A stretch of DNA of 64,000 nucleotides from Siphonodentalium dalli (taxonomy: Eukaryota > Mollusca > Scaphopoda > Gadilida > Siphonodentaliidae). A program made the position numbers and the translations under genes. The stretch lies in NCBI GenBank assembly GCA_032622095.1, contig CP136064.1, positions 178,142,247-178,206,246 on the forward strand, in the 5' to 3' direction. The notes under the pieces are model-generated. The model did no database searches and was not told the origin of the DNA. It worked only from the letters and a program-made list of their open reading frames with translations. How positions within the stretch are numbered: the stretch's first letter is position 1; every line of letters begins with the position of its first letter. Positions 1 to 54,130 of this stretch are shown here, one piece after another.

Positions 1-110
1 TTATATGCTGTGCGCATAATATTCTGGCCTTAAAATTTGGCGCCACAAACTTCTCAAATAGATATCACCCGTTTTGTGCAGAAAGCAAATGGTGGCCCCA
101 CTAGCAACCA

Positions 111-205
111 GCCCGGTTAGCTCAGTCGGTAGAGCATCAGACTTTTAAGAGTCTGCTAAATTCAGAGTCATCTGAGGGTCATGGGTTCAAGTCCCATATC
201 GGGCG
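111..205 (+). tRNA. tRNA-Lys(TTT), intron-containing, array copy 1
   Basis: The exons fold as a canonical lysine tRNA. There is a 7-bp acceptor stem (GCCCGGT with ATCGGGC), a 4-bp D stem (GCTC/GAGC), an anticodon stem TCAGA/TCTGA with loop CTTTTAA, a T stem ATGGG/CCCAT with loop TTCAAGT, and discriminator G. The anticodon TTT is at 144-146. A 22-nt intron at 148-169 lies between positions 37 and 38, the standard site for eukaryotic tRNA introns. C32 can pair with the third base from the intron 3' end, leaving the 3-nt bulge expected for the splicing endonuclease. The A box (TAGCTCAGTCGG) and B box (GGTTCAAGTCC) are intact. No CCA is encoded, as expected in eukaryotes. Compared with the usual animal tRNA-Lys, the changes at 7-66, 49-65 and 50-64 are paired and keep the stems intact, which argues for function. 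Confidence 0.96.
148..169 (+). other. 22-nt tRNA intron (copy 1; same in every copy)
   Basis: The intron starts and ends with the same hexamer, AGAGTC. Its first half can also pair with the 5' anticodon arm (CAGACT with AGTCTG), and its last part (TCAGA) with the 3' anticodon stem (TCTGA). The precursor therefore has a mutually exclusive alternative to the canonical fold. Confidence 0.9.
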
Positions 206-212
206 ACGTTAG

Positions 213-217
213 TTTTT
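213..217 (+). terminator. Pol III T5 terminator (copy 1; repeated in every unit)
   Basis: A run of five T residues starts 8 nt past the tRNA 3' end, a normal Pol III terminator. The same TTTTT follows each of the 32 genes at the same distance. Confidence 0.9.
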
Positions 218-468
218 ATACTCGAAAACGATGCACCATCTCGGTTTCCATCACAAAATCATAACACCCGACCACCTGGTTCCCAATTGGATAGTTTACA
301 AACATCAAATAGCGTGTTTGCGCAATACACAATAAAATCGAGCCCCAAATTATTCCACTTATATGCTGTGCGCATAATATTCTGGCCTTAAAATTTGGCG
401 CCACAAACTTCTCAAATAGATATCACCCGTTTTGTGCAGAAAGCAAATGGTGGCCCCACTAGCAACCA

Positions 469-563
469 GCCCGGTTAGCTCAGTCGGTAGAGCATCAGAC
501 TTTTAAGAGTCTGCTAAATTCAGAGTCATCTGAGGGTCATGGGTTCAAGTCCCATATCGGGCG
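469..563 (+). tRNA. tRNA-Lys(TTT), array copy 2
   Basis: Reads identical to copy 1, intron and T5 included. Confidence 0.96.
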
Positions 564-826
564 ACGTTAGTTTTTATACTCGAAAACGATGCACCATCTC
601 GGTTTCCATCACAAAATCATAACACCCGACCACCTGGTTCCCAATTGGATAGTTTACAAACATCAAATAGCGTGTTTGCGCAATACACAATAAAATCGAG
701 CCCCAAATTATTCCACTTATATGCTGTGCGCATAATATTCTGGCCTTAAAATTTGGCGCCACAAACTTCTCAAATAGATATCACCCGTTTTGTGCAGAAA
801 GCAAATGGTGGCCCCACTAGCAACCA

Positions 827-921
827 GCCCGGTTAGCTCAGTCGGTAGAGCATCAGACTTTTAAGAGTCTGCTAAATTCAGAGTCATCTGAGGGTCATGG
901 GTTCAAGTCCCATATCGGGCG
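827..921 (+). tRNA. tRNA-Lys(TTT), array copy 3
   Basis: Reads identical to copy 1. Confidence 0.96.
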
Positions 922-1185
922 ACGTTAGTTTTTATACTCGAAAACGATGCACCATCTCGGTTTCCATCACAAAATCATAACACCCGACCACCTGGTTCCC
1001 AATTGGATAGTTTACAAACATCAAATAGCGTGTTTGCGCAATACACAATAAAATCGAGCCCCAAATTATTCCACTTATATGCTGTGCGCATAATATTCTG
1101 GCCTTAAAATTTGGCGCCACAAACTTCTCAAATAGATATCACCCGTTTTGTGCAGAAAGCAAATGGTGGCCCCCACTAGCAACCA

Positions 1186-1280
1186 GCCCGGTTAGCTCAG
1201 TCGGTAGAGCATCAGACTTTTAAGAGTCTGCTAAATTCAGAGTCATCTGAGGGTCATGGGTTCAAGTCCCATATCGGGCG
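1186..1280 (+). tRNA. tRNA-Lys(TTT), array copy 4 (variant spacer)
   Basis: The gene itself is identical to copy 1. This is the only unit with visible differences: an extra C in the upstream spacer shifts the gene by one base, and a missing A downstream restores the register. Confidence 0.96.
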
Positions 1281-1542
1281 ACGTTAGTTTTTATACTCGA
1301 AAACGATGCACCATCTCGGTTTCCATCACAAAATCATAACACCCGACCACCTGGTTCCCATTGGATAGTTTACAAACATCAAATAGCGTGTTTGCGCAAT
1401 ACACAATAAAATCGAGCCCCAAATTATTCCACTTATATGCTGTGCGCATAATATTCTGGCCTTAAAATTTGGCGCCACAAACTTCTCAAATAGATATCAC
1501 CCGTTTTGTGCAGAAAGCAAATGGTGGCCCCACTAGCAACCA

Positions 1543-1637
1543 GCCCGGTTAGCTCAGTCGGTAGAGCATCAGACTTTTAAGAGTCTGCTAAATTCAGAGT
1601 CATCTGAGGGTCATGGGTTCAAGTCCCATATCGGGCG
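1543..1637 (+). tRNA. tRNA-Lys(TTT), array copy 5
   Basis: Reads identical to copy 1. Confidence 0.96.
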
Positions 1638-1900
1638 ACGTTAGTTTTTATACTCGAAAACGATGCACCATCTCGGTTTCCATCACAAAATCATAACACC
1701 CGACCACCTGGTTCCCAATTGGATAGTTTACAAACATCAAATAGCGTGTTTGCGCAATACACAATAAAATCGAGCCCCAAATTATTCCACTTATATGCTG
1801 TGCGCATAATATTCTGGCCTTAAAATTTGGCGCCACAAACTTCTCAAATAGATATCACCCGTTTTGTGCAGAAAGCAAATGGTGGCCCCACTAGCAACCA

Positions 1901-1995
1901 GCCCGGTTAGCTCAGTCGGTAGAGCATCAGACTTTTAAGAGTCTGCTAAATTCAGAGTCATCTGAGGGTCATGGGTTCAAGTCCCATATCGGGCG
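1901..1995 (+). tRNA. tRNA-Lys(TTT), array copy 6
   Basis: Reads identical to copy 1. Confidence 0.96.
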
Positions 1996-2258
1996 ACGTT
2001 AGTTTTTATACTCGAAAACGATGCACCATCTCGGTTTCCATCACAAAATCATAACACCCGACCACCTGGTTCCCAATTGGATAGTTTACAAACATCAAAT
2101 AGCGTGTTTGCGCAATACACAATAAAATCGAGCCCCAAATTATTCCACTTATATGCTGTGCGCATAATATTCTGGCCTTAAAATTTGGCGCCACAAACTT
2201 CTCAAATAGATATCACCCGTTTTGTGCAGAAAGCAAATGGTGGCCCCACTAGCAACCA

Positions 2259-2353
2259 GCCCGGTTAGCTCAGTCGGTAGAGCATCAGACTTTTAAGAGT
2301 CTGCTAAATTCAGAGTCATCTGAGGGTCATGGGTTCAAGTCCCATATCGGGCG
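2259..2353 (+). tRNA. tRNA-Lys(TTT), array copy 7
   Basis: Reads identical to copy 1. Confidence 0.96.
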
Positions 2354-2616
2354 ACGTTAGTTTTTATACTCGAAAACGATGCACCATCTCGGTTTCCATC
2401 ACAAAATCATAACACCCGACCACCTGGTTCCCAATTGGATAGTTTACAAACATCAAATAGCGTGTTTGCGCAATACACAATAAAATCGAGCCCCAAATTA
2501 TTCCACTTATATGCTGTGCGCATAATATTCTGGCCTTAAAATTTGGCGCCACAAACTTCTCAAATAGATATCACCCGTTTTGTGCAGAAAGCAAATGGTG
2601 GCCCCACTAGCAACCA

Positions 2617-2711
2617 GCCCGGTTAGCTCAGTCGGTAGAGCATCAGACTTTTAAGAGTCTGCTAAATTCAGAGTCATCTGAGGGTCATGGGTTCAAGTCC
2701 CATATCGGGCG
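2617..2711 (+). tRNA. tRNA-Lys(TTT), array copy 8
   Basis: Reads identical to copy 1. Confidence 0.96.
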
Positions 2712-2974
2712 ACGTTAGTTTTTATACTCGAAAACGATGCACCATCTCGGTTTCCATCACAAAATCATAACACCCGACCACCTGGTTCCCAATTGGATAG
2801 TTTACAAACATCAAATAGCGTGTTTGCGCAATACACAATAAAATCGAGCCCCAAATTATTCCACTTATATGCTGTGCGCATAATATTCTGGCCTTAAAAT
2901 TTGGCGCCACAAACTTCTCAAATAGATATCACCCGTTTTGTGCAGAAAGCAAATGGTGGCCCCACTAGCAACCA

Positions 2975-3069
2975 GCCCGGTTAGCTCAGTCGGTAGAGCA
3001 TCAGACTTTTAAGAGTCTGCTAAATTCAGAGTCATCTGAGGGTCATGGGTTCAAGTCCCATATCGGGCG
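2975..3069 (+). tRNA. tRNA-Lys(TTT), array copy 9
   Basis: Reads identical to copy 1. Confidence 0.96.
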
Positions 3070-3332
3070 ACGTTAGTTTTTATACTCGAAAACGATGCAC
3101 CATCTCGGTTTCCATCACAAAATCATAACACCCGACCACCTGGTTCCCAATTGGATAGTTTACAAACATCAAATAGCGTGTTTGCGCAATACACAATAAA
3201 ATCGAGCCCCAAATTATTCCACTTATATGCTGTGCGCATAATATTCTGGCCTTAAAATTTGGCGCCACAAACTTCTCAAATAGATATCACCCGTTTTGTG
3301 CAGAAAGCAAATGGTGGCCCCACTAGCAACCA

Positions 3333-3427
3333 GCCCGGTTAGCTCAGTCGGTAGAGCATCAGACTTTTAAGAGTCTGCTAAATTCAGAGTCATCTGAGGG
3401 TCATGGGTTCAAGTCCCATATCGGGCG
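3333..3427 (+). tRNA. tRNA-Lys(TTT), array copy 10
   Basis: Reads identical to copy 1. Confidence 0.96.
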
Positions 3428-3690
3428 ACGTTAGTTTTTATACTCGAAAACGATGCACCATCTCGGTTTCCATCACAAAATCATAACACCCGACCACCTG
3501 GTTCCCAATTGGATAGTTTACAAACATCAAATAGCGTGTTTGCGCAATACACAATAAAATCGAGCCCCAAATTATTCCACTTATATGCTGTGCGCATAAT
3601 ATTCTGGCCTTAAAATTTGGCGCCACAAACTTCTCAAATAGATATCACCCGTTTTGTGCAGAAAGCAAATGGTGGCCCCACTAGCAACCA

Positions 3691-3785
3691 GCCCGGTTAG
3701 CTCAGTCGGTAGAGCATCAGACTTTTAAGAGTCTGCTAAATTCAGAGTCATCTGAGGGTCATGGGTTCAAGTCCCATATCGGGCG
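3691..3785 (+). tRNA. tRNA-Lys(TTT), array copy 11
   Basis: Reads identical to copy 1. Confidence 0.96.
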
Positions 3786-4048
3786 ACGTTAGTTTTTATA
3801 CTCGAAAACGATGCACCATCTCGGTTTCCATCACAAAATCATAACACCCGACCACCTGGTTCCCAATTGGATAGTTTACAAACATCAAATAGCGTGTTTG
3901 CGCAATACACAATAAAATCGAGCCCCAAATTATTCCACTTATATGCTGTGCGCATAATATTCTGGCCTTAAAATTTGGCGCCACAAACTTCTCAAATAGA
4001 TATCACCCGTTTTGTGCAGAAAGCAAATGGTGGCCCCACTAGCAACCA

Positions 4049-4143
4049 GCCCGGTTAGCTCAGTCGGTAGAGCATCAGACTTTTAAGAGTCTGCTAAATT
4101 CAGAGTCATCTGAGGGTCATGGGTTCAAGTCCCATATCGGGCG
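4049..4143 (+). tRNA. tRNA-Lys(TTT), array copy 12
   Basis: Reads identical to copy 1. Confidence 0.96.
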
Positions 4144-4406
4144 ACGTTAGTTTTTATACTCGAAAACGATGCACCATCTCGGTTTCCATCACAAAATCAT
4201 AACACCCGACCACCTGGTTCCCAATTGGATAGTTTACAAACATCAAATAGCGTGTTTGCGCAATACACAATAAAATCGAGCCCCAAATTATTCCACTTAT
4301 ATGCTGTGCGCATAATATTCTGGCCTTAAAATTTGGCGCCACAAACTTCTCAAATAGATATCACCCGTTTTGTGCAGAAAGCAAATGGTGGCCCCACTAG
4401 CAACCA

Positions 4407-4501
4407 GCCCGGTTAGCTCAGTCGGTAGAGCATCAGACTTTTAAGAGTCTGCTAAATTCAGAGTCATCTGAGGGTCATGGGTTCAAGTCCCATATCGGGC
4501 G
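4407..4501 (+). tRNA. tRNA-Lys(TTT), array copy 13
   Basis: Reads identical to copy 1. Confidence 0.96.
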
Positions 4502-4764
4502 ACGTTAGTTTTTATACTCGAAAACGATGCACCATCTCGGTTTCCATCACAAAATCATAACACCCGACCACCTGGTTCCCAATTGGATAGTTTACAAACA
4601 TCAAATAGCGTGTTTGCGCAATACACAATAAAATCGAGCCCCAAATTATTCCACTTATATGCTGTGCGCATAATATTCTGGCCTTAAAATTTGGCGCCAC
4701 AAACTTCTCAAATAGATATCACCCGTTTTGTGCAGAAAGCAAATGGTGGCCCCACTAGCAACCA

Positions 4765-4859
4765 GCCCGGTTAGCTCAGTCGGTAGAGCATCAGACTTTT
4801 AAGAGTCTGCTAAATTCAGAGTCATCTGAGGGTCATGGGTTCAAGTCCCATATCGGGCG
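4765..4859 (+). tRNA. tRNA-Lys(TTT), array copy 14
   Basis: Reads identical to copy 1. Confidence 0.96.
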
Positions 4860-5122
4860 ACGTTAGTTTTTATACTCGAAAACGATGCACCATCTCGGTT
4901 TCCATCACAAAATCATAACACCCGACCACCTGGTTCCCAATTGGATAGTTTACAAACATCAAATAGCGTGTTTGCGCAATACACAATAAAATCGAGCCCC
5001 AAATTATTCCACTTATATGCTGTGCGCATAATATTCTGGCCTTAAAATTTGGCGCCACAAACTTCTCAAATAGATATCACCCGTTTTGTGCAGAAAGCAA
5101 ATGGTGGCCCCACTAGCAACCA

Positions 5123-5217
5123 GCCCGGTTAGCTCAGTCGGTAGAGCATCAGACTTTTAAGAGTCTGCTAAATTCAGAGTCATCTGAGGGTCATGGGTTC
5201 AAGTCCCATATCGGGCG
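5123..5217 (+). tRNA. tRNA-Lys(TTT), array copy 15
   Basis: Reads identical to copy 1. Confidence 0.96.
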
Positions 5218-5480
5218 ACGTTAGTTTTTATACTCGAAAACGATGCACCATCTCGGTTTCCATCACAAAATCATAACACCCGACCACCTGGTTCCCAATT
5301 GGATAGTTTACAAACATCAAATAGCGTGTTTGCGCAATACACAATAAAATCGAGCCCCAAATTATTCCACTTATATGCTGTGCGCATAATATTCTGGCCT
5401 TAAAATTTGGCGCCACAAACTTCTCAAATAGATATCACCCGTTTTGTGCAGAAAGCAAATGGTGGCCCCACTAGCAACCA

Positions 5481-5575
5481 GCCCGGTTAGCTCAGTCGGT
5501 AGAGCATCAGACTTTTAAGAGTCTGCTAAATTCAGAGTCATCTGAGGGTCATGGGTTCAAGTCCCATATCGGGCG
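5481..5575 (+). tRNA. tRNA-Lys(TTT), array copy 16
   Basis: Reads identical to copy 1. Confidence 0.96.
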
Positions 5576-5838
5576 ACGTTAGTTTTTATACTCGAAAACG
5601 ATGCACCATCTCGGTTTCCATCACAAAATCATAACACCCGACCACCTGGTTCCCAATTGGATAGTTTACAAACATCAAATAGCGTGTTTGCGCAATACAC
5701 AATAAAATCGAGCCCCAAATTATTCCACTTATATGCTGTGCGCATAATATTCTGGCCTTAAAATTTGGCGCCACAAACTTCTCAAATAGATATCACCCGT
5801 TTTGTGCAGAAAGCAAATGGTGGCCCCACTAGCAACCA

Positions 5839-5933
5839 GCCCGGTTAGCTCAGTCGGTAGAGCATCAGACTTTTAAGAGTCTGCTAAATTCAGAGTCATC
5901 TGAGGGTCATGGGTTCAAGTCCCATATCGGGCG
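5839..5933 (+). tRNA. tRNA-Lys(TTT), array copy 17
   Basis: Reads identical to copy 1. Confidence 0.96.
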
Positions 5934-6196
5934 ACGTTAGTTTTTATACTCGAAAACGATGCACCATCTCGGTTTCCATCACAAAATCATAACACCCGAC
6001 CACCTGGTTCCCAATTGGATAGTTTACAAACATCAAATAGCGTGTTTGCGCAATACACAATAAAATCGAGCCCCAAATTATTCCACTTATATGCTGTGCG
6101 CATAATATTCTGGCCTTAAAATTTGGCGCCACAAACTTCTCAAATAGATATCACCCGTTTTGTGCAGAAAGCAAATGGTGGCCCCACTAGCAACCA

Positions 6197-6291
6197 GCCC
6201 GGTTAGCTCAGTCGGTAGAGCATCAGACTTTTAAGAGTCTGCTAAATTCAGAGTCATCTGAGGGTCATGGGTTCAAGTCCCATATCGGGCG
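6197..6291 (+). tRNA. tRNA-Lys(TTT), array copy 18
   Basis: Reads identical to copy 1. Confidence 0.96.
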
Positions 6292-6554
6292 ACGTTAGTT
6301 TTTATACTCGAAAACGATGCACCATCTCGGTTTCCATCACAAAATCATAACACCCGACCACCTGGTTCCCAATTGGATAGTTTACAAACATCAAATAGCG
6401 TGTTTGCGCAATACACAATAAAATCGAGCCCCAAATTATTCCACTTATATGCTGTGCGCATAATATTCTGGCCTTAAAATTTGGCGCCACAAACTTCTCA
6501 AATAGATATCACCCGTTTTGTGCAGAAAGCAAATGGTGGCCCCACTAGCAACCA

Positions 6555-6649
6555 GCCCGGTTAGCTCAGTCGGTAGAGCATCAGACTTTTAAGAGTCTGC
6601 TAAATTCAGAGTCATCTGAGGGTCATGGGTTCAAGTCCCATATCGGGCG
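6555..6649 (+). tRNA. tRNA-Lys(TTT), array copy 19
   Basis: Reads identical to copy 1. Confidence 0.96.
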
Positions 6650-6912
6650 ACGTTAGTTTTTATACTCGAAAACGATGCACCATCTCGGTTTCCATCACAA
6701 AATCATAACACCCGACCACCTGGTTCCCAATTGGATAGTTTACAAACATCAAATAGCGTGTTTGCGCAATACACAATAAAATCGAGCCCCAAATTATTCC
6801 ACTTATATGCTGTGCGCATAATATTCTGGCCTTAAAATTTGGCGCCACAAACTTCTCAAATAGATATCACCCGTTTTGTGCAGAAAGCAAATGGTGGCCC
6901 CACTAGCAACCA

Positions 6913-7007
6913 GCCCGGTTAGCTCAGTCGGTAGAGCATCAGACTTTTAAGAGTCTGCTAAATTCAGAGTCATCTGAGGGTCATGGGTTCAAGTCCCATA
7001 TCGGGCG
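6913..7007 (+). tRNA. tRNA-Lys(TTT), array copy 20
   Basis: Reads identical to copy 1. Confidence 0.96.
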
Positions 7008-7270
7008 ACGTTAGTTTTTATACTCGAAAACGATGCACCATCTCGGTTTCCATCACAAAATCATAACACCCGACCACCTGGTTCCCAATTGGATAGTTTA
7101 CAAACATCAAATAGCGTGTTTGCGCAATACACAATAAAATCGAGCCCCAAATTATTCCACTTATATGCTGTGCGCATAATATTCTGGCCTTAAAATTTGG
7201 CGCCACAAACTTCTCAAATAGATATCACCCGTTTTGTGCAGAAAGCAAATGGTGGCCCCACTAGCAACCA

Positions 7271-7365
7271 GCCCGGTTAGCTCAGTCGGTAGAGCATCAG
7301 ACTTTTAAGAGTCTGCTAAATTCAGAGTCATCTGAGGGTCATGGGTTCAAGTCCCATATCGGGCG
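7271..7365 (+). tRNA. tRNA-Lys(TTT), array copy 21
   Basis: Reads identical to copy 1. Confidence 0.96.
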
Positions 7366-7628
7366 ACGTTAGTTTTTATACTCGAAAACGATGCACCATC
7401 TCGGTTTCCATCACAAAATCATAACACCCGACCACCTGGTTCCCAATTGGATAGTTTACAAACATCAAATAGCGTGTTTGCGCAATACACAATAAAATCG
7501 AGCCCCAAATTATTCCACTTATATGCTGTGCGCATAATATTCTGGCCTTAAAATTTGGCGCCACAAACTTCTCAAATAGATATCACCCGTTTTGTGCAGA
7601 AAGCAAATGGTGGCCCCACTAGCAACCA

Positions 7629-7723
7629 GCCCGGTTAGCTCAGTCGGTAGAGCATCAGACTTTTAAGAGTCTGCTAAATTCAGAGTCATCTGAGGGTCAT
7701 GGGTTCAAGTCCCATATCGGGCG
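7629..7723 (+). tRNA. tRNA-Lys(TTT), array copy 22
   Basis: Reads identical to copy 1. Confidence 0.96.
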
Positions 7724-7986
7724 ACGTTAGTTTTTATACTCGAAAACGATGCACCATCTCGGTTTCCATCACAAAATCATAACACCCGACCACCTGGTTC
7801 CCAATTGGATAGTTTACAAACATCAAATAGCGTGTTTGCGCAATACACAATAAAATCGAGCCCCAAATTATTCCACTTATATGCTGTGCGCATAATATTC
7901 TGGCCTTAAAATTTGGCGCCACAAACTTCTCAAATAGATATCACCCGTTTTGTGCAGAAAGCAAATGGTGGCCCCACTAGCAACCA

Positions 7987-8081
7987 GCCCGGTTAGCTCA
8001 GTCGGTAGAGCATCAGACTTTTAAGAGTCTGCTAAATTCAGAGTCATCTGAGGGTCATGGGTTCAAGTCCCATATCGGGCG
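7987..8081 (+). tRNA. tRNA-Lys(TTT), array copy 23
   Basis: Reads identical to copy 1. Confidence 0.96.
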
Positions 8082-8344
8082 ACGTTAGTTTTTATACTCG
8101 AAAACGATGCACCATCTCGGTTTCCATCACAAAATCATAACACCCGACCACCTGGTTCCCAATTGGATAGTTTACAAACATCAAATAGCGTGTTTGCGCA
8201 ATACACAATAAAATCGAGCCCCAAATTATTCCACTTATATGCTGTGCGCATAATATTCTGGCCTTAAAATTTGGCGCCACAAACTTCTCAAATAGATATC
8301 ACCCGTTTTGTGCAGAAAGCAAATGGTGGCCCCACTAGCAACCA

Positions 8345-8439
8345 GCCCGGTTAGCTCAGTCGGTAGAGCATCAGACTTTTAAGAGTCTGCTAAATTCAGA
8401 GTCATCTGAGGGTCATGGGTTCAAGTCCCATATCGGGCG
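8345..8439 (+). tRNA. tRNA-Lys(TTT), array copy 24
   Basis: Reads identical to copy 1. Confidence 0.96.
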
Positions 8440-8702
8440 ACGTTAGTTTTTATACTCGAAAACGATGCACCATCTCGGTTTCCATCACAAAATCATAACA
8501 CCCGACCACCTGGTTCCCAATTGGATAGTTTACAAACATCAAATAGCGTGTTTGCGCAATACACAATAAAATCGAGCCCCAAATTATTCCACTTATATGC
8601 TGTGCGCATAATATTCTGGCCTTAAAATTTGGCGCCACAAACTTCTCAAATAGATATCACCCGTTTTGTGCAGAAAGCAAATGGTGGCCCCACTAGCAAC
8701 CA

Positions 8703-8797
8703 GCCCGGTTAGCTCAGTCGGTAGAGCATCAGACTTTTAAGAGTCTGCTAAATTCAGAGTCATCTGAGGGTCATGGGTTCAAGTCCCATATCGGGCG
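8703..8797 (+). tRNA. tRNA-Lys(TTT), array copy 25
   Basis: Reads identical to copy 1. Confidence 0.96.
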
Positions 8798-9060
8798 ACG
8801 TTAGTTTTTATACTCGAAAACGATGCACCATCTCGGTTTCCATCACAAAATCATAACACCCGACCACCTGGTTCCCAATTGGATAGTTTACAAACATCAA
8901 ATAGCGTGTTTGCGCAATACACAATAAAATCGAGCCCCAAATTATTCCACTTATATGCTGTGCGCATAATATTCTGGCCTTAAAATTTGGCGCCACAAAC
9001 TTCTCAAATAGATATCACCCGTTTTGTGCAGAAAGCAAATGGTGGCCCCACTAGCAACCA

Positions 9061-9155
9061 GCCCGGTTAGCTCAGTCGGTAGAGCATCAGACTTTTAAGA
9101 GTCTGCTAAATTCAGAGTCATCTGAGGGTCATGGGTTCAAGTCCCATATCGGGCG
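9061..9155 (+). tRNA. tRNA-Lys(TTT), array copy 26
   Basis: Reads identical to copy 1. Confidence 0.96.
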
Positions 9156-9418
9156 ACGTTAGTTTTTATACTCGAAAACGATGCACCATCTCGGTTTCCA
9201 TCACAAAATCATAACACCCGACCACCTGGTTCCCAATTGGATAGTTTACAAACATCAAATAGCGTGTTTGCGCAATACACAATAAAATCGAGCCCCAAAT
9301 TATTCCACTTATATGCTGTGCGCATAATATTCTGGCCTTAAAATTTGGCGCCACAAACTTCTCAAATAGATATCACCCGTTTTGTGCAGAAAGCAAATGG
9401 TGGCCCCACTAGCAACCA

Positions 9419-9513
9419 GCCCGGTTAGCTCAGTCGGTAGAGCATCAGACTTTTAAGAGTCTGCTAAATTCAGAGTCATCTGAGGGTCATGGGTTCAAGT
9501 CCCATATCGGGCG
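9419..9513 (+). tRNA. tRNA-Lys(TTT), array copy 27
   Basis: Reads identical to copy 1. Confidence 0.96.
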
Positions 9514-9776
9514 ACGTTAGTTTTTATACTCGAAAACGATGCACCATCTCGGTTTCCATCACAAAATCATAACACCCGACCACCTGGTTCCCAATTGGAT
9601 AGTTTACAAACATCAAATAGCGTGTTTGCGCAATACACAATAAAATCGAGCCCCAAATTATTCCACTTATATGCTGTGCGCATAATATTCTGGCCTTAAA
9701 ATTTGGCGCCACAAACTTCTCAAATAGATATCACCCGTTTTGTGCAGAAAGCAAATGGTGGCCCCACTAGCAACCA

Positions 9777-9871
9777 GCCCGGTTAGCTCAGTCGGTAGAG
9801 CATCAGACTTTTAAGAGTCTGCTAAATTCAGAGTCATCTGAGGGTCATGGGTTCAAGTCCCATATCGGGCG
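9777..9871 (+). tRNA. tRNA-Lys(TTT), array copy 28
   Basis: Reads identical to copy 1. Confidence 0.96.
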
Positions 9872-10134
9872 ACGTTAGTTTTTATACTCGAAAACGATGC
9901 ACCATCTCGGTTTCCATCACAAAATCATAACACCCGACCACCTGGTTCCCAATTGGATAGTTTACAAACATCAAATAGCGTGTTTGCGCAATACACAATA
10001 AAATCGAGCCCCAAATTATTCCACTTATATGCTGTGCGCATAATATTCTGGCCTTAAAATTTGGCGCCACAAACTTCTCAAATAGATATCACCCGTTTTG
10101 TGCAGAAAGCAAATGGTGGCCCCACTAGCAACCA

Positions 10135-10229
10135 GCCCGGTTAGCTCAGTCGGTAGAGCATCAGACTTTTAAGAGTCTGCTAAATTCAGAGTCATCTGAG
10201 GGTCATGGGTTCAAGTCCCATATCGGGCG
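10135..10229 (+). tRNA. tRNA-Lys(TTT), array copy 29
   Basis: Reads identical to copy 1. Confidence 0.96.
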
Positions 10230-10492
10230 ACGTTAGTTTTTATACTCGAAAACGATGCACCATCTCGGTTTCCATCACAAAATCATAACACCCGACCACC
10301 TGGTTCCCAATTGGATAGTTTACAAACATCAAATAGCGTGTTTGCGCAATACACAATAAAATCGAGCCCCAAATTATTCCACTTATATGCTGTGCGCATA
10401 ATATTCTGGCCTTAAAATTTGGCGCCACAAACTTCTCAAATAGATATCACCCGTTTTGTGCAGAAAGCAAATGGTGGCCCCACTAGCAACCA

Positions 10493-10587
10493 GCCCGGTT
10501 AGCTCAGTCGGTAGAGCATCAGACTTTTAAGAGTCTGCTAAATTCAGAGTCATCTGAGGGTCATGGGTTCAAGTCCCATATCGGGCG
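10493..10587 (+). tRNA. tRNA-Lys(TTT), array copy 30
   Basis: Reads identical to copy 1. Confidence 0.96.
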
Positions 10588-10850
10588 ACGTTAGTTTTTA
10601 TACTCGAAAACGATGCACCATCTCGGTTTCCATCACAAAATCATAACACCCGACCACCTGGTTCCCAATTGGATAGTTTACAAACATCAAATAGCGTGTT
10701 TGCGCAATACACAATAAAATCGAGCCCCAAATTATTCCACTTATATGCTGTGCGCATAATATTCTGGCCTTAAAATTTGGCGCCACAAACTTCTCAAATA
10801 GATATCACCCGTTTTGTGCAGAAAGCAAATGGTGGCCCCACTAGCAACCA

Positions 10851-10945
10851 GCCCGGTTAGCTCAGTCGGTAGAGCATCAGACTTTTAAGAGTCTGCTAAA
10901 TTCAGAGTCATCTGAGGGTCATGGGTTCAAGTCCCATATCGGGCG
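10851..10945 (+). tRNA. tRNA-Lys(TTT), array copy 31
   Basis: Reads identical to copy 1. Confidence 0.96.
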
Positions 10946-11208
10946 ACGTTAGTTTTTATACTCGAAAACGATGCACCATCTCGGTTTCCATCACAAAATC
11001 ATAACACCCGACCACCTGGTTCCCAATTGGATAGTTTACAAACATCAAATAGCGTGTTTGCGCAATACACAATAAAATCGAGCCCCAAATTATTCCACTT
11101 ATATGCTGTGCGCATAATATTCTGGCCTTAAAATTTGGCGCCACAAACTTCTCAAATAGATATCACCCGTTTTGTGCAGAAAGCAAATGGTGGCCCCACT
11201 AGCAACCA

Positions 11209-11303
11209 GCCCGGTTAGCTCAGTCGGTAGAGCATCAGACTTTTAAGAGTCTGCTAAATTCAGAGTCATCTGAGGGTCATGGGTTCAAGTCCCATATCGG
11301 GCG
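11209..11303 (+). tRNA. tRNA-Lys(TTT), array copy 32 (last)
   Basis: Reads identical to copy 1. Its downstream spacer runs on to about 11543 and then ends where a 33rd gene would have been expected. Confidence 0.96.
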
Positions 11304-11543
11304 ACGTTAGTTTTTATACTCGAAAACGATGCACCATCTCGGTTTCCATCACAAAATCATAACACCCGACCACCTGGTTCCCAATTGGATAGTTTACAAA
11401 CATCAAATAGCGTGTTTGCGCAATACACAATAAAATCGAGCCCCAAATTATTCCACTTATATGCTGTGCGCATAATATTCTGGCCTTAAAATTTGGCGCC
11501 ACAAACTTCTCAAATAGATATCACCCGTTTTGTGCAGAAAGCA

Positions 11544-12370
11544 CCACAACTAGCTATTTCGTTTCGTCGGAAATACAAAAAAATATTTAAATTAGCTCCG
11601 CCCTGCGTCAAAATGAAGATTACCCTTTTTGCGACCAGATATTTGCAATTGCGTTCAAACAGGCATTTATCCGCCATTTCGCGTGAAATCGAGTTCACCA
11701 ACTATCAGGGAATTCTCGATTTGATAGATTTCATCTTTTTTGCGACCACGATGAGTCTCAATTTACTAGAACTGTACGGTGTATACGATGAACTCTTCGA
11801 GATTATGACCTTTAGAAGCCACGCCCATCAACCGAAAGATTTTTGCCACATATATTAAAACCTCCATGGCTCCTGGGTGCCTTGACTTATGAAGATGTCA
11901 CATGCGCGGTTGGACAGGAGACATTCTCGACTATAATATGGTGTGATGGTTCATAGCGATATCTTAATTGTCTGTATTTATTAGAGACATTTCGTGAGAG
12001 TTTAGTTTCAAGCATCATGCCGCTATTACCAAAGGGTCGCATCATGCACCGTCACATGGAACCACAAGTCACGGGTTGCGCTAAAGACCGAGCAGAAAGA
12101 AAATAGAGTATTAAATGTGATAGAATTAATTTTTAATGATATTACATTCCACAATAATAGATAACATTTAAACTTCAGTGCAATTAGATATGACAATATG
12201 GTGTTCGTAAACCTCGGAATAAATTAACGCGAGTCATTGAAATCTTCTGCTCGGTATACATACAGTAAGGTAACTGACTATCTCTGTGTAAATGAAGAGG
12301 CCTAAGAATTATAGGAGATTTTTGGTGTTTGACCTGGTGATATTTGGGCTGCGAACATGTTGCAGGTAGA
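11544..12370. other. Unique-looking flank of the tRNA array, no gene seen
   Basis: An open frame on the plus strand runs from array spacer into this flank (to 11858), but it has no recognisable motif. The phrase TTTTTGCGACCA occurs twice (near 11629 and 11739), hinting at an old internal duplication. I see no tRNA or 5S gene. Confidence 0.5.
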
Positions 12371-12384
12371 GGTTGGGCCGACAC

Positions 12385-12585
12385 GCTCAGCCAAAAATAC
12401 CTTCCAAAAAAACGCATTTACAAAAATGTGGAGCAGACGAAATTGAAACGAAAGAACACTTAATAATGAGATGCGAAAAACATAACTATTTGCGGAAAAG
12501 ATTTTTCACTGAAATAAGATTTCACAAACCAATTTTCGTAAACTTTGATGAAAAAGAAAAGTTCATGTTCCCCATGAAGGTTTAA
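12385..12585 (+). pseudogene. Fragment of a non-LTR retrotransposon ORF2 C-terminus
   Basis: The translated stretch contains CGADEIETKEHLIMRC, the Cys-His-Cys arrangement found after the reverse transcriptase domain in many LINE proteins. It is followed by LRKRFFTEIRFHKPIF and then a stop. No RT domain lies upstream, so this is a 5'-truncated remnant. Clade assignment is not possible by eye. Confidence 0.55.
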
Positions 12586-12695
12586 AACCGAGCATTTTCA
12601 ATCTGATATGCAACATGATTCGGCAGTTTCCGCAAATAATTGAGAATATATAGTGTTGAGTTACCAATACATGTTTATTGTTCTATATATTTTTT

Positions 12696-13012
12696 ATACT
12701 AGCTGATGTGCCCGACTTCGGCTGGGCTATTTGGGGATTTCTTTGTGATCACCTCCGTCTGGGCAGACTATACAGCGTCTGGACAAATTATTGTTCGATC
12801 GGTCCAGAAACATGCCTATATGAGCGTATATGGACGAGGTCAATGTCAAGATCAAGGGTCATGGACGCGGCCGCACCTGAAATTGGACCCGCCCATATTG
12901 TTCCCGGGATCAAAGTAAGCCTACATACCAAATTTGAGTCGGATCGGTCGAGCAGTTTTCGAGTCTATAACACACATACATACATACATACATACAGAAG
13001 TTCCAAAATATA
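12696..13012 (+). mobile_element. TE fragment with CATA-repeat tail
   Basis: It begins CTAGCTGATGTGCCCGACTT and ends CCAAATTTGAGTCGGATCGG, then AGCAGTTTTCGAGT and a (CATA)n run at about 12966-12994. This layout, with a conserved short 3' segment followed by a tetranucleotide tail, recurs in invertebrate RTE-like non-LTR elements and their derivatives. No intact coding frame was recognised. Confidence 0.5.
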
Positions 13013-13034
13013 TAATAGATGAAGTTGTCTTGGC

Positions 13035-13500
13035 TTGTGTTTAAATTATCTGTATTAGAATAGAATAGAATATTTATTGCAATACACCAGATATATAGGC
13101 AGTTGCAAGTTACAACATGAATTAAAACTTAAAACATGTAAATACGAACGATAATAAATTGTGTTCAATAACTGTTTGATGCAATACATCGTCATTCAAC
13201 TACCACCAATAACTTCTCGTGTTTATCATTATAATATACTAAACTTTCAAAGACCCTCTTCTGAGAAAGAACAACCTGATCATGTTGCATACGGTATTTA
13301 TAATCTTTGCTTCATCATTTCTCATAATCGTTTGAAATTTTTCACTATCGCTCATTTAAAAAAATTCACCCTTATTTTCTTGAATATTTCGAAATATTCA
13401 GTCTTGCTCTTAGATCACAAAATGATATTCAGTTTCAACACGCGCCTGATCGCACATTGTACAGTGTACACAATCTGTTTTTAACTGGAGTTTTCGGTTG
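13035..13500 (-). mobile_element. LINE 3' end with TTCTA-type tail, minus strand
   Basis: On the minus strand the sequence ends with AATAAATATTCTATTCTATT, an A/T-rich pentanucleotide tail typical of CR1/L2-like elements. Upstream of the tail the minus strand encodes, with stops, CTMCDQARVETEYHFVI, a decayed LINE zinc-knuckle region. It is a dead 5'-truncated copy. Confidence 0.5.
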
Positions 13501-14465
13501 TTTATGCCTACCTTTTTGTATTATGACAACTGCCCTACGTGGGTGAATTTTGTCAATAAAAAGTTTAGTTTAACAAGCACGGCTCAAGTTGGTTTGCATG
13601 GTCCATTCCCAGCTATGTTTAAATTGTCCACATCGCTGTCTGTAGAAGGTGCAAGCCAACGGTAGGCCTAGCTACCTGATTGAAATCATCACCCGAACGG
13701 AAACTGATCAGAAGACAGAATACTCATATATTCCTAATGTGGAATTTATTGATATATAATTATGTCATAATATCCAACCTGACACCACCCCTAAGGTTGG
13801 AAAATTTCCAACTGATGGCAATATCAGTCTAAAATTATGACCAAAAGGAGGTCAATATGCAAATGTTGGTCTGAAACAACAAATCCCCCTCAAATAAACT
13901 GTTGGAAAATCAAACTACAAGAACAATTTCAACCTATTGTTGGTGTGAAATTTCGAAATAATGTTGTGCCAGGTATGAAATTTCCAACTGTTCAAATTTT
14001 TTACCAAAGTTGGTGGGGGGGGGGGGGGGTGAGCCACCCCCACCCCAACCCGCCCCAGTCCCTGGTTACATAAAATAATACTCAACAAATATATTCACCC
14101 ATGTGTCTGATGTTGTATAAATAAAACGTGTTAATTCCAAATGTATTTCAATGTATAAATTCATCATACTAGTAGTACTAGACCAATCTTTAATGCTCCA
14201 GCTTCAATTCTGTTCATAGGCTATTAACCCTTTGATAACTGAATAATATCTGACAAGTAATTACTCCACTCCCATTGATTAAGGTGGCGCATAATTGGCT
14301 AAATTTTAAACATTGATGGCCATGGCAAATTTATATGTATCTAGTGCATGTATTGGACCTTGTAGTGTGTGAAAGAGATATTGTTATAGCAAGTTTGACA
14401 CTTTCTTCAAAACGACATTCTTGGTTTTCAAGATAGAATCCACGTTCTCTACCAAAGTGAATAAT
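13501..14465. other. No gene seen; homopurine run
   Basis: AT-rich intergenic DNA. A G run near 14018-14030 is followed by a C-rich stretch (CACCCCCACCCCAACCC). Short inverted motifs such as TTGGAAAATTTCCAA are present. No coding or RNA gene was recognised. Confidence 0.5.
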
Positions 14466-14683
14466 TTAACCCTGTTATGACAGGAGCTGCGCTGGTACAG
14501 CATTAAATTACCTGTACCAATGCATTCTCAATGCACTGGCTTACAAGGTCAAGTTAATATTGTTAAGCCAATGTATTCTGTTATATATGCGAGGCTCCCT
14601 ATGGGAGACTCACATATATAAGAGAATGCATTGGCACAGTGTTTTCGCAAAATTTCAGGAAGTTCCTGTCATGGAAGGGTTAA
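14466..14683. mobile_element. TTAA-flanked hairpin MITE, copy A
   Basis: Terminal inverted repeats TTAACCCTGTTATGACAGGA and (minus strand) TTAACCCTTCCATGACAGGA bound the element, with TTAA at both ends. Inside is a palindrome with arms CTTATATATG-type around CTCCCTATGGGAG, preceded by a partial second one. TTAA plus CCCTTT-like ends fit a non-autonomous piggyBac-type element; the superfamily is inferred. Confidence 0.7.
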
Positions 14684-16730
14684 ATTAATAAACCAGTGAG
14701 TGTACCGGTAATAGAATCTGGATCACAATATTAGCTTTCAGTTTTTGTGGTTTTCATAAGTATTACTGTACACTAAATCCAACCATTTATGGGACAATCT
14801 CCTTCTATAATCAACAGAATATATGCAACAAATGAATGAATTTGAGCCATGGATTAGTGCAAAATACACCCATGTCCTCTATGAACGATGCAAATAACAT
14901 GGTAATATTAATGAAAATGAATTTATGACTCCAGTTGCATATATTCTGTTGAGTATAAAAGGAGATAGTCACCTTTAATTTTGTTTTTACAAATATATTT
15001 TTGATCTTTAAAAAACAAGTTTTCTGTGATAAATATTATCTCCCTTTGAAATCCAAACAGCAGCTACAATCCAGAAAGAATGTCCAATTTACTATACATG
15101 CAAATCAGTGAACTCAAGCCTTTCATATTTCAAGCTATGAGGAGCAGATATTTCTAGTAATATCAGCATCTTCAAGACTGACTTCTAATTTCACAGCACC
15201 ATCTTAATTTGTAGTACTTTGCAGCTAATAATTTTAACAAACATCATTAGCCTGTTTGTTTGTTGATATTATTAGCTGAACATCCATCCAAGCCTGCAAA
15301 AAGAGTGTTTGTCATTTTCAGAATGAGGTTCCCAGAGGTTGAATTTAGTGGCGCTATCCCACATGGTGGGCTAGCATCACCATATTCACCCTCTGAGAAC
15401 CCCATTCTGCTTAGGCCTCAATGGCTATGGGAGACCTAGGATCAGATTGAATATCCCCAGTTGAAGTTGATGTTCACCCATTAGTCACCTCGATAATGCA
15501 TTTTATCTTCTGCAAATTAGGGGATATAGAAACTTCCCAGAAGGGAAAAAGTAACTAAAACAATGTTAATTTGAGACTGTAGATGGAATGTCATGAGGAA
15601 AATAATTATTGGATTTCCAGGACAGCTACAGAATTTCTCCTCTGTGATTTGGGCCCCTACATATCCACCTGGATCTTGTGCACTGGGATATCTATATGAC
15701 AACACTGAATTAAAATTGAAGCAGACATAGCAAATTGATGAATATTTATTACTCATAACAAGGATAACATTTTTTTTAATTTTATATCACAGATATTCCA
15801 ACCCAGGAGGGTTGTATAAATAGTAACAAATGATTCACATCTGCTCAGTCAACATGTGGTTGCTTATCCTTAAGATTAAAGGCCCACAAGGCACTCGCAG
15901 CAAGTACTAACGGATATAAAGTTATTGAAATTCAACCGACCAAATGTGAGAATGCCACCGTATTGACAAATATAACCTAAAAAGATCTATTTGCTTCTTA
16001 AGGTCTCAAAATTTTACTCATTATGGATTTGCATGAAAATTTATTCTAAGTTTTACATGCAAGAACACTTTTAAAAGGGCACACATGCAATGTTGTACAT
16101 TTCAACAATGTATGATTCCTGAATTACTGCATGCATAAAAATAATCCATGTCTCTTTTTGTGGAAACCCAAAGATGATATTTTATTCTTGAACTCATGCT
16201 GTAATAATGGAAATTAATTAGAAACCATGTGTACAATAAAACAGAACTAAATAAACAAAGAACAGTTTCTAGTTTTGTCTTCTCCCAAACATTGCCTGCT
16301 AATCTATCTTGCACATTTTAACATTGATTAATTTTTGGTAGGCATAAACTGCTTTTTAGTTTGACTGTCTGACAAAATTATATGAAAAATATACTAAATT
16401 CAAGGCAGATGAAAAACTGTTCGGTTTCAAAATGGAGGTTATTTCTATAAAGCTGTTCAGTTTCAAACTGAAGGTTATTTGTATAAAAAAGGACAGACTT
16501 CATGTTTAGAAACACAGTATATTGCCACATACTGCGGAGGTTTAGATTGTAAAATGGTAACTTGGTTGCTAGTAGCTACCGATGGTCAGTTGATTCACAT
16601 GATAGCCAGACATTCCCGTTTTGAGGAAACTGGTTTAGATCATTCAGAGCGCATAACTTAACTTCAAAATTACAGCAAGCAAGATAATCGAATGCATATA
16701 GTCGGCATCTCGGAGCAGAGACCGTAGGAA
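14684..16730. other. Intergenic, one dispersed repeat, no gene seen
   Basis: Apart from the inverted-repeat family copy at 15321-15575, I see no gene, RNA or clear element here. The DNA is AT-rich with scattered short direct and inverted motifs. Confidence 0.5.
15321..15575 (-). mobile_element. Degenerate copy of the 330-bp inverted-repeat element (see 49677-50006)
   Basis: This segment matches the element at 49677-50006 in the opposite orientation over most of its length. Shared blocks include CATTCTGCTTAGGCCTCA, GGGGATATAGAAACTT and ACTAAAACAATGTTAATTTG. The outer ends are eroded here. Confidence 0.65.
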
Positions 16731-16732
16731 TA

Positions 16733-16909
16733 CACTAATGCCCTAAATAATCGACTCCTTAACCACAGCAGAATTATGGGTAACTTTTCAGGATTTAGCT
16801 CATCAAGAGCTTTCCGATGAATGGCAACAAGCCATATTTCCGACTAAATCTTGAAAAGTTACCCATCATTCTGCTGTGGTTAAGGAGTCGATTATTTAGG
16901 GCATTAGTG
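16733..16909. mobile_element. Palindromic TA-flanked MITE (family K), copy 1
   Basis: Ends CACTAATGCCCTAAATAATC and its reverse complement, flanked by TA. The two halves are near-perfect complements (GACTCCTTAACCACAGCAGA against its inverse). TA duplication and a CAGT-like start fit a Tc1/mariner-derived MITE. Confidence 0.75.
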
Positions 16910-16911
16910 TA

Positions 16912-17395
16912 TATGATTAGTTTATACACACATCAATAAGGTGATATCTATCAACGACAGAATGCCAAGTTTTTTCAGCAATTTAATTATGTTGGAATTT
17001 GACAATCTCCTTATCCTCTCCATGGCAAGATGGCCACACAAAACACAACAGCATGAGACTGAGATTCATTTGTCCCCCCAAAATAACCCATAAAAATACA
17101 CAAAATGACCCTTTACTGTTACCTTTAACTCATAACTATTGGTTGATTATAATACACATGAAATTGTTAGCGAAGCAAGCAAGCAAGCGGTTAGACAATA
17201 TTAGTCTTGCACATTTCGCAGTTCAGCGATTGTCGCATAATTATGATTTTCACAAAGCCACCTTGTCATTCAACATTATCGGCATATGTCAAACTTTCAC
17301 GAGTTATATGATGTGGTGCTTTTGCACCGCACCAAGAGTATTTCAATTGCAACCCAAGTTTCTCCGTTTTACAATGTAAACCTCACCACTACATA
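16912..17395. other. No gene seen
   Basis: Short overlapping frames on the plus strand show no recognisable motif. This lies beyond the 3' end of LRRC43. Confidence 0.4.
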
Positions 17396-17594
17396 CAGTA
17401 ATGTCCTAAATAATCGACCCCAAATCCACAGCATAATTATGGGAACTTTTTCAGGATTTAGTCGGAAATATGGCTTGCTGCCATTCATCGGAAAGTTCTC
17501 TGTGAGTGGTAACAAGCCATATTTCCGACTATATCCTGAAACATTTCCCATAATTATGCTGTGGTTATAGGGTCATACACTTTGGGCGTTACTG
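17396..17594. mobile_element. Palindromic TA-flanked MITE (family K), copy 2
   Basis: CAGTAATGTCCTAAATAATC at one end and GGGCGTTACTG at the other, with TA on both sides. The halves are diverged complements. It ends only about 70 bp beyond the LRRC43 stop codon, so it probably lies in or next to the 3' UTR. Confidence 0.7.
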
Positions 17595-17663
17595 TATGTC
17601 AGAAATCTCTATCTCAGGCTGGTTGATTTAAATTTGAGATATGATAATGACAATCTTGACAGG

Positions 17664-17881
17664 TCAAGACTCTGTGTGCTGTTCCTGACTGGCTTTCATC
17701 TTTTCTTCCTCCTCTCTAACAGAGTCCATAGCTGTCTGCCAATGGTGCAAGTGAACTTCAACTTTGACCTCAAGTGGAGGTGGAGGGGCATCTTCACCAT
17801 CCTCGTCTGGCAATGAGGGAGTCTTTCCTTTGCCCTTTGCATCTTTTTTGTCATCCTTGCCCTTCTTGTCAGGCTTTTTGT
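17664..17881 (-). CDS. LRRC43: LRRC43 exon 14 (stop codon)
   Basis: It follows acceptor GATTTTTCAG and encodes DKKPDKKGKDDKKDAKGKGK, an acidic/proline hinge (DEDGEDAPPPPLEVKVEVHL) and an amphipathic C-terminal helix (MDSVREEEEKMKASQEQ), ending at TGA. I found no clear AATAAA in the next few hundred bases. Confidence 0.9.
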
Positions 17882-20800
17882 CTGAAAAATCGAAATTCAA
17901 GAAGTGAAGAAAAGTTTATCATGATGGTGATTATAGTAATTGGAACCGTGACAACCCGACCCACCGACAAACCGACCCGAGCGTATTTTATGTCAGGTTG
18001 TCCCGAATTTCAGGGCAGGGTTGTCCCATGATTTGAGTAAATATTTTTATTGTAATATTTTAATTTCATCTATTCTTAAAGGCCCACTTAATTTTCGAAC
18101 CCCCAGATCACATTATATAAAATATATGCCATATTATATACCATTTGAAAGAGGAAGCTCCAAAACATTGTATTATCAACTTATCCGGTGTAATAATCTG
18201 TGGAATGTTGTTTTTGTTGAGTTGCCAACACGTTTTGTCATCAAGATTGAAGTAAAAATCAATATCATTTTCAATGCAGCCGTTTGAGATCAGTTGCATT
18301 CTGGGTGTCGCAGGGGGGGGGGGGGGGGAAGTCTTTAAATGATTTCAGCAGTTTTCTATTTCTCTGTTGGCATCTTCTGAGAAACAGATGTTTCAAATAG
18401 TGATGAATTATGGTATTTTAATCATATTTTATGGCATAGATTGTTATTAAAACCGTATACCAAGTCACCATAAAAAAATAATCGGTGACTCGAAAATTAA
18501 GTGGGCCTTTAAGATTCCTATTATATAACATCAATTAATTACTCGTTTTCTTTGAGTTGCTGATATATATACTAAATGAAGCTCCACAAGACAACCGTCG
18601 CTGTCAATGTGTCTCGTGTCATGGAGAAGATAATAGGAAGAGAAGAAAGCAGATAGACCATTTAGAAAGAAAGGCTACTTCTAATCAACTGTCCGCTAAA
18701 GTAGTCAACAAGAGGTTGCAAGCCTTGAGATTCAATGAGAACCACGAAACTATGCTCGTAATGATGCTCGCGAACTTTTCAAAGTTGAATGCTGTATGAC
18801 CAACCTGATTCCGCATTTGATGCTCACAAAAGGCAATGCATTTGGAGCCTGGCATTTATCTGTTTCACGATTTCGAGAAGGCTTCCATTTCCCAACCTGG
18901 CGATATTCAACATGTTGAAATACCGGCTAGCTCCAAAGTTAAACCAACTGAGAAATCACAGGAAACATGCACCGTGATTGTGTACCCCTTCTGGGACGGA
19001 TGGGGTACCCCTCCGAATGCACCTTGTTCTTGAGACAACCATCGCCTGAAGTGCGAATCAAGTGGGCGGATCATATGATCTGGCATCCTACACCCAATGC
19101 TAGTGAATATCTCACACGAGGGAAAGCATCTGGCAAGGATCTTCTGTCCGTAGGAAGAGCGTACAACATTATTAATGTGAATCGTGAAGATAGGAAATCA
19201 GTTGCTTTCTGAAGATGAGCCTATGTCTAGGATGGATTCATATAGCGACCCATTGTATCAGTACCGCTCTTCGTGATATGACTGACCCATCATCCAAAGA
19301 TTATTCCTGAAGACTATCGACACAGGCGATACTCTATTCCGGCCATGACCACAACCTCTCAGGTGCCGGATGGCACATTGAAAGAAGCAACCACATTATA
19401 AAGCAGGAAGTCTTTTGAATACCTAGTCCGTTCCCATGTCGCCAGGTTTGCAGTCCGATGGCCTAACCACTCGGCTACAGCGACACTTGTCTGCAACAGA
19501 GAACCCTAAACAACTATCTGAGCTCCCTCGTGAGCACAATTCTCTTCTTCATTTCTCTTTTGTATGGGTGACCCCAAAGGAATGTCCAAAGCCTTTTCAC
19601 CTCGGGGATAGAACTACAGCTCGTCCCGATCCCGATCTCCATCCGTCCGAACTAGCGATGGGTTAAAAATGTTAGGTGGGGCAGGATCCGAAGCATGCCT
19701 CCTACTTGAATGGCATCGTGGGGAAATTTTTTTTTATTGTGCATTGGGATTCAAACCCGAAGGTACTGGCTGCTGTTAATCAAAAGGCGGCCAGTAACTG
19801 GAATTCCAGGACCACGGACATGCAGTTGGCCAACATGGAGGAAGCATGCTTGGGAATTTCGGCCCCAAACCATGCCCAGCAGGGACCGAAGGCATATAGG
19901 ATTATAATAGGGACAGGGTGTTCTCACCCCCAGCGGTGCTGACCCTGAGATGGTGACTTGTAGCGATGGACGGCGTGGTTCAAATGTTAGGTGAGAAGCA
20001 CACAGCCGTACCTGGGCACGCAACCCGCCAACCCGAGGGAGCAGATTGACGTCCCGTACGATAGTCCACGGATACCCACTACTTTTCTTCTTTTTTCTTT
20101 TCTTGTTTGTGTGGTTCTTCTTGGAGGGGCAGCTTGGCTGCGGTGCCCTCACGTTCCGTGTTTGAGGTAACTATCGCCCCGAGTTGCTAAGCCAAGGAGG
20201 GGATCACTATTCTCTAGTGGCCAGTTCTCCGAGGCAGCGGTACCCTCGAAACGAGGAGAACAGCAGCTCTAGGGGAGCTACAGGGAAAGATCTTCTGGAT
20301 CTGGTTCTTCTTACATCGTATCTGTATATATAACAGTGCAGGAACCATCTGGTTGTAGACGCACTGGTGCAGGTGCTACCACGGCCGAGCAATGTTATAA
20401 CCCTGTGGCGATTCCAGTAGCTCTCTTTAACGCGCACACCCCGAGGTGTGTACACGGGTCAGCTATTAATGTCAGTGCCCGATCGGGCATCGTACTGCAC
20501 CCCAGACAACCTACCTGGACAAGTGTTGTAATGGGGGGAAGCCGGCATTTTGCATTCGGATCTTTATTCAGAGATCTTGAATGAGACCTTTCAGCCTGAC
20601 AAGCTTGGTATCTGACCGAGTTCTGACAATTGCTAACAATAAAAAACTACACCTGTTATTTTTATGTTGATAAGCACCTTGGCTGTGACAACGAACGGCA
20701 GTAAGCTAATCGATTGTTTTGCACGAAATCAATATTGTAACACAATTTTGTTAAGTTGAAACAACAATGAAAAAATAATTGACAAGTGTCAATTTTCACT

Positions 20801-53067: not shown

Positions 53068-53349
53068 AACAGATGTTCATTCAAAAGTTGTACTACATGT
53101 ACATATAAATTGGAACCCGGGCATTCACGTAAAACCCATGTCCGTGATTAATCTTTCTTCAAATGATATATCATCTACCATGATAGAAAAGGTAGAGTGA
53201 TGATACAATCATTTAATGCATTGTTTATACAATTTTCTTCTAGCGCCTTCAAATCGAAATTGTATGGAAAATTATCCTTTGTTTACTTAAATATCTCATT
53301 GCTTTGACATTTAACGAACCTCTGATATATGAATGTTTGATATCTTCAT

Positions 53350-53560: not shown

Positions 53561-53565
53561 CTATA

Positions 53566-53686
53566 AATTGGCAAAACGAACAACTTTAAAGAAGGAAAGG
53601 AATATTGTTGATAAATAAAATTATGAATTAGTTGAAGAATATGTATATACCACTTTCCTTCTTTAAAGTTGTTCGTTTTGCCAATT
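53566..53686. repeat. Perfect 34-bp inverted repeat with 53-nt spacer
   Basis: AATTGGCAAAACGAACAACT at the left continues into TTAAAGAAGGAAAG and is exactly complementary to 53653-53686. The spacer is AT-rich. Confidence 0.85.
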
Positions 53687-54128: not shown

Positions 54129-54130
54129 TA

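Follow-up and report, generated by a model that had tools for sequence, protein, structure and literature searches.

What kind of locus is a tract in which a single tRNA gene is repeated, head to tail and almost without change, until it runs off the edge of the sequence in hand: a working gene array, a satellite that happens to carry a tRNA gene, or a product of assembly? The question is raised by a 64,000-nucleotide stretch of the scaphopod mollusc Siphonodentalium dalli (assembly GCA_032622095.1, contig CP136064.1, here C4; the whole stretch, C4:178142247–178206246, is called the window), which opens with tandem copies of a tRNA-Lys(UUU) gene. We consider it likely that a large tRNA-Lys(UUU) array on C4, a multicopy locus comparable to ribosomal DNA (rDNA), has one of its ends in the window, and that the contig carrying the window is a misplaced piece of the alternate haplotype.

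The units are read directly from the assembly. ARAGORN found 32 complete head-to-tail copies in the window (Table 1), Tandem Repeats Finder (TRF) reported a period of 358 bp with 32.2 copies and 99% matches over positions 1–11543, and the Rfam tRNA model scored 62.1 bits for all 32 copies, against a cut-off of 29; chance is not an issue. A preliminary description, made from the window alone, had proposed this copy number and period, the identity of the gene as tRNA-Lys(UUU) with an intron, and an array exceeding the left edge, all of which hold: the cloverleaf pairs and a 22-nt insertion in the anticodon loop bear out the identity, and leftward of the window nine further forward units, making 41 in total, run up to a 100-N gap (C4:178138796–178138895). 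Past this gap, 117 full units follow in inverted orientation, with a period of mostly 357 bp, in one gap-free stretch. The 358-bp period is the only one that TRF reports in window positions 1–11543, with no short tandem repeats in the spacer.

The gene spans 95 bp; without the 22 nt that occupy the canonical intron place, a 73-nt tRNA is left, with four stems all fully paired, one pair being G-U. The anticodon called by ARAGORN has four bases, which we think reflects the bacterial settings used, under which no intron was placed. Folding z-scores are −5.0 for the precursor and −4.6 for the mature form. With internal A and B boxes and a T-run terminator, each 358-bp unit would be a self-contained RNA polymerase III (Pol III) gene, and its product would be an intron-bearing pre-tRNA that requires splicing. 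As a separate observation, the intron of the gene at window 111–205, and of its identical copies, is predicted to be able to base-pair with each half of the anticodon stem. This alternative precursor fold has a predicted energy of −35.9 kcal/mol, versus −29.9 kcal/mol when the canonical stems are imposed; no conclusion here rests on it.

How far the array extends was followed by pattern counts over the nine contigs of the 2.23-Gb genome. Exact 5′ halves of the gene number 440 (41 forward, 399 reverse), T arms with up to three mismatches 452 (41 forward, 411 reverse) and spacers with up to three mismatches 441 (38 forward, 403 reverse), and the agreement between 440 gene halves and 441 spacers indicates that gene and spacer travel together. 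The 358-type spacer accounts for 38 forward and 181 reverse copies, and a third, more diverged spacer type has 89 copies, all 89 of them listed, at C4:178372389–178471120. Among the matches listed, everything falls within C4:178096459–178471371; placement rests on these matches (one search scored 8 of 34 candidates, while the listing of the third type is complete), and by our own tally about 374 of the 441 spacers are placed. A tRNA-derived short interspersed element was considered and rejected, as the listed copies lie within 0.38 Mb of C4 and the gene and spacer counts agree.

The same genome-wide counts bear on whether the array is one source of this tRNA among several. A continuous, intronless canonical Lys(UUU) anticodon arm has no match in the nine contigs at up to three mismatches, and the array therefore looks like the only canonical source of tRNA-Lys(UUU); together the units would supply apparently all of the canonical tRNA. 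Hundreds of copies and an apparently sole source might suggest that selection for AAA-decoding capacity drove this array in particular, along the lines of the AAA-specific dosage expansion first suggested for it. This genome, however, also has tandem repeats of the genes for other isoacceptors: Thr(UGU) and Thr(CGU) on C5, and Arg, Lys(CUU), Val, Trp and Asp on C8. Tandem tRNA arrays thus look like a habit of this genome and not a special response to AAA codons; dosage expansion as such is unsupported, and we find it improbable that AAA selection singled out this locus. Among 112,462 candidates, the 63 tRNA hits that were scored are concentrated in a small number of local groups. Many of these are evenly spaced, as at C8:185.996–186.122 Mb (about 1.5 kb), C4:252.637–252.654 Mb (1.3 kb) and C4:190.26–190.40 Mb (about 45 kb).

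Whether the copies are maintained or decaying can be judged from the variation among 221 full-length units, partial units having been dropped and up to three missing end bases filled with the letters of the reference unit, so that variants there are under-counted. The gene is perfect in 211 of the 221. Distinct single-nucleotide polymorphisms (SNPs) number 36 in the 263 spacer bases, 3 in the 73 exon bases and 1 in the 22 intron bases, and of those common to two or more units 21 lie in the spacer and none in the gene. The units also evolve together: 35 of the 41 on the window contig and 83 of the 117 in the inverted block are identical, with variants fixed specifically in each block, and near-identical units with an intact gene follow one another head to tail. 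Spacer variants shared without shared gene variants, together with the number of perfect genes, make this look like a maintained, homogenised gene array and not a dead satellite. Unequal exchange and gene conversion, both proposed for the tRNA arrays of Entamoeba (PMC2652664), would keep the units alike.

That extreme uniformity would also suit a largely silent satellite in which a tRNA gene merely happens to be included, as reported for an Arabidopsis Ser/Tyr tRNA cluster that is silenced in most tissues (PMC12308677). A satellite built on a tRNA gene had also been raised in the preliminary description, and it loses ground to the perfect genes, to the lack of any shared gene SNP and to the failure to find an intronless canonical gene; we hold it highly improbable. 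A decayed tRNA satellite is rejected on the point variants, although indels alone show no difference between gene and spacer.

The orientation of the copies leads to the second part of our account, which concerns the contig itself. The window contig, about 131 kb long, sits between two 100-N gaps, the one already given and C4:178269911–178270010. Beyond the array, window positions 11510–62099 have an inverted, colinear match on the neighbouring contig. The aligned pieces (those of more than 300 columns and more than 94% identity, large indels between pieces excluded) total 48,474 columns, of which 415 are mismatches, or 0.87% with gap columns left out. The match continues through the outer pieces fetched, as far as repeats of 122 bp. 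Between the units of the two contigs, which are the 357 and 358 types, there are four fixed substitutions, every one of them in the spacer, and a length difference of one base; this fixed-site difference is near the divergence of the flanks. All 41 forward copies sit on the window contig; if it is flipped, it meets the next contig in 358-type units and takes the orientation of every other counted copy. Indel-bearing units crowd at the gap, as at contig ends: by cuts chosen after looking, they make up 12 of the nearest 19 units on one side versus 6 of the other 98, and 6 of the nearest 13 on the opposite side versus none of the other 28.

From this sequence evidence we infer that the window contig is probably a piece of the alternate haplotype, an array end that escaped purging and entered the scaffold in reverse between two gaps. 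In that event the raw count of 440 mixes two alleles, and we estimate roughly 320–400 copies per haploid set, which is a minimum, since the blocks stop at gaps. Assembly expansion, which the preliminary description had named as its own potential undoing, is thereby partly upheld: the stretch in the window is best read as the second haplotype's copy, although 117 full units do stand in one gap-free stretch. Two kinds of repeat were noted in these flanks. Tandem repeats of about 164 bp occupy window positions 30995–32578, their extent apparently differing between the two flank copies, and the 122-bp repeats, with higher-order periods of about 500 bp and GACA runs, occur in L037, L042, L040 and L044, on the window side up to near the second gap.

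Several observations weigh against this account in one or another of its parts. With regard to sole supply, 15 other genes with a UUU anticodon and an Arg-type body lie between C8:186269929 and C8:189175936; these 15 exact copies of the anticodon arm are the only other UUU-anticodon genes we met, those in L002, L003, L005 and L008 are identical in body to the nearby Arg(UCU) genes apart from a single anticodon base, and they may be charged with Lys or with Arg. In the census, T arms exceed exact 5′ halves by 12, and some copies are unplaced. As to maintenance, indel columns are no rarer in the gene (14 in the exon versus 23 in the spacer), 10 of those in the exon belonging to a 10-bp deletion that has come to be shared by 3 of the 24 units of L041; the binomial p-values for the SNP deficit (0.032 for the exon, 0.018 for the whole gene) are modest and come from non-independent units. 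Regarding the haplotig, the comparison covered the pieces fetched, and a further gap may lie in C4:178226247–178256246 (30 kb) or in several stretches on the neighbour side; the start of the flank beside the array (909 bp, 99.9%) also follows a block ending at C4:178362072.

This third occurrence of the array end and its first 909 bp of flank implies that real duplications occur here, and it lends some weight to the idea that the window contig is a true inverted segmental duplication within one chromosome. So does the neighbour side, which extends to sequence that has no close second copy, a K+-channel-like exon whose best other match is 69%; a second probe of uniqueness there (L038) fell on a dispersed repeat, with a best other match of 91% among the 40 of 3157 candidates scored. 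Set against this, the window contig is joined on either side across a 100-N gap, a 0.87% mismatch rate with many indels looks allelic, and flipping one contig suffices to make all 440 counted copies codirectional. We regard an inverted duplication as unlikely and retain the misplaced haplotype as the preferred reading.

The array also carries insertions, some of which fall at a recurrent place in the gene. A 1998-bp poly(A)-tailed insertion (L032:3068–5065) splits a tRNA gene, the unit stopping at position 125 and resuming at 131, and near C4:178351945 (L045) a second poly(A) end, dissimilar to the first element, lies at the same place, 131/132; the two are independent insertions with the same 3′ junction. 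Other units end in the D arm at 125 (C4:178382565 and 178394349, the latter break holding the first 284 bp of the L032 element) and at 134 (C4:178344064), and an insertion at 134 (L020:1–1366) has an open reading frame (ORF) with sub-cut-off matches to PHD (E 0.006) and endonuclease (E 0.015) domains. The long ORF of the 2.0-kb insertion has one chance-level Pfam match (E 0.35), two ORF1-like proteins gave no match when compared with one another, and no reverse transcriptase was seen in the element sequence read, which is a minor part of the elements. Unit ends outside the D arm, at 87/88 (three times), 306/307, 316 and 326, mean that the D arm is not the sole break point. One insertion of 2.8 kb in the spacer (L031:980–3773, unit 306/307) has terminal inverted repeats of about 45 bp and is DNA-transposon-like.

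That two unrelated poly(A) ends meet the gene at one exact base suggests site-specific retroelements, resembling those without long terminal repeats (non-LTR), that target the tRNA D arm, on the strength of two events only. They recall the R elements of rDNA in inserting at one exact base of a multicopy gene, here a tRNA gene. Exact-site insertion in or beside multicopy tRNA genes is also described, in PMC3706591, for Dada DNA transposons, which target small RNA genes, with Dewa in a tRNA-Leu spacer; the ends at unit 131/132 here differ in carrying poly(A) and looking non-LTR. As elements at tRNA genes and spacers are already known (PMC3706591), the D arm would be a new target and not a new kind of element.

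To the right of the array, an adjoining ordinary protein gene, as first described, was not confirmed: of 42 ORFs of at least 90 amino acids in window positions 11500–64000, 21 were scanned against Pfam and 20 had no match, a scan that a gene of short exons would escape. The single near-cut-off match is to THAP, at 55639–55959 (E 0.00056, 21.1 bits against a cut-off of 23.9).

Table 1. Features of the window, with position, strand and basis of each assignment.
Tandem array of 32 complete 358-bp units and a partial one (11457–11543 = unit 1–87)	1..11543	+	ARAGORN, TRF
First tRNA-Lys(UUU) gene of the window, recurring every ~358 bp to 11209–11303	111..205	+	ARAGORN, Rfam
A box TAGCTCAGTCGG	118..129	+	read from sequence against the consensus
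Anticodon TTT (positions 34–36)	144..146	+	sequence and cloverleaf pairs
22-nt intron in the canonical 37/38 position; its boundary can shift by one A	148..169	+	anticodon-loop insertion in Rfam alignment and fold, interpreted
B box GGTTCAAGTCC	184..194	+	read from sequence against the consensus
Spacer of 263 bp between genes 1 and 2	206..468	+	unit comparison
T5 run closely following the gene, a likely Pol III terminator	213..217	+	read from sequence
Flank R, with inverted colinear counterpart in the neighbouring contig	11544..64000	.	alignment

Tandem tRNA units in an animal are known from the tDNA repeats of Xenopus, which are multi-gene, kilobase units, unlike those described here. tRNA gene clusters across eukaryotes are the subject of PMC2888827 and tRNA introns are reviewed in PMC4090602. 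Closest in appearance are the Entamoeba arrays (PMC2652664), near-uniform, many-copy tandem tRNA units that take in almost every tRNA gene of the genome and of which some are named after one gene ([R-TCT], [H-GTG]); in E. histolytica and E. dispar, however, complex short tandem repeats lie between the genes, a feature missing from the spacer here, and the present locus differs further in the intron of its gene and its setting in a 2.2-Gb genome. The Arabidopsis tRNA-Cys cluster (PMC10701932) shares a single isoacceptor, a similar unit length (0.4 kb) and variable copy number, but has four copies versus hundreds here, whereas the Arabidopsis Ser/Tyr cluster (PMC12308677), likewise of tandemly repeated tRNA genes, involves two isoacceptors.

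The human locus at 1q23.3 is a variable-number tRNA tandem repeat too, with 7.3-kb units, 9–43 per allele, and CTCF binding (PMC4041453). Its proposed role as a boundary invites the thought that the chief role of the present array is that of a chromatin boundary, by way of Pol III factors; the human case rests on its CTCF site, and we give the thought very little credence. The array belongs with known tandem tRNA arrays, and what is unusual about it is its copy number, its one-gene unit, its intron and its apparent sole supply. A search of one open literature library found no published description of it.

Taken at its fullest, our proposal is that a one-gene, intron-bearing array is the only canonical source of its tRNA, is homogenised as rDNA is and hosts its own D-arm retroelements, so that the decoding of AAA would depend wholly on splicing; we advance this combined claim tentatively, placing it somewhat short of an even chance. 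For genome projects, the locus would show how a tRNA array can split a contig, admit a backward haplotig and distort copy counts. If the proposal is true, it would add a new target for site-specific retroelements, and tRNA copy-number control, silencing and splicing would become testable at one locus, as rDNA has allowed for rRNA.

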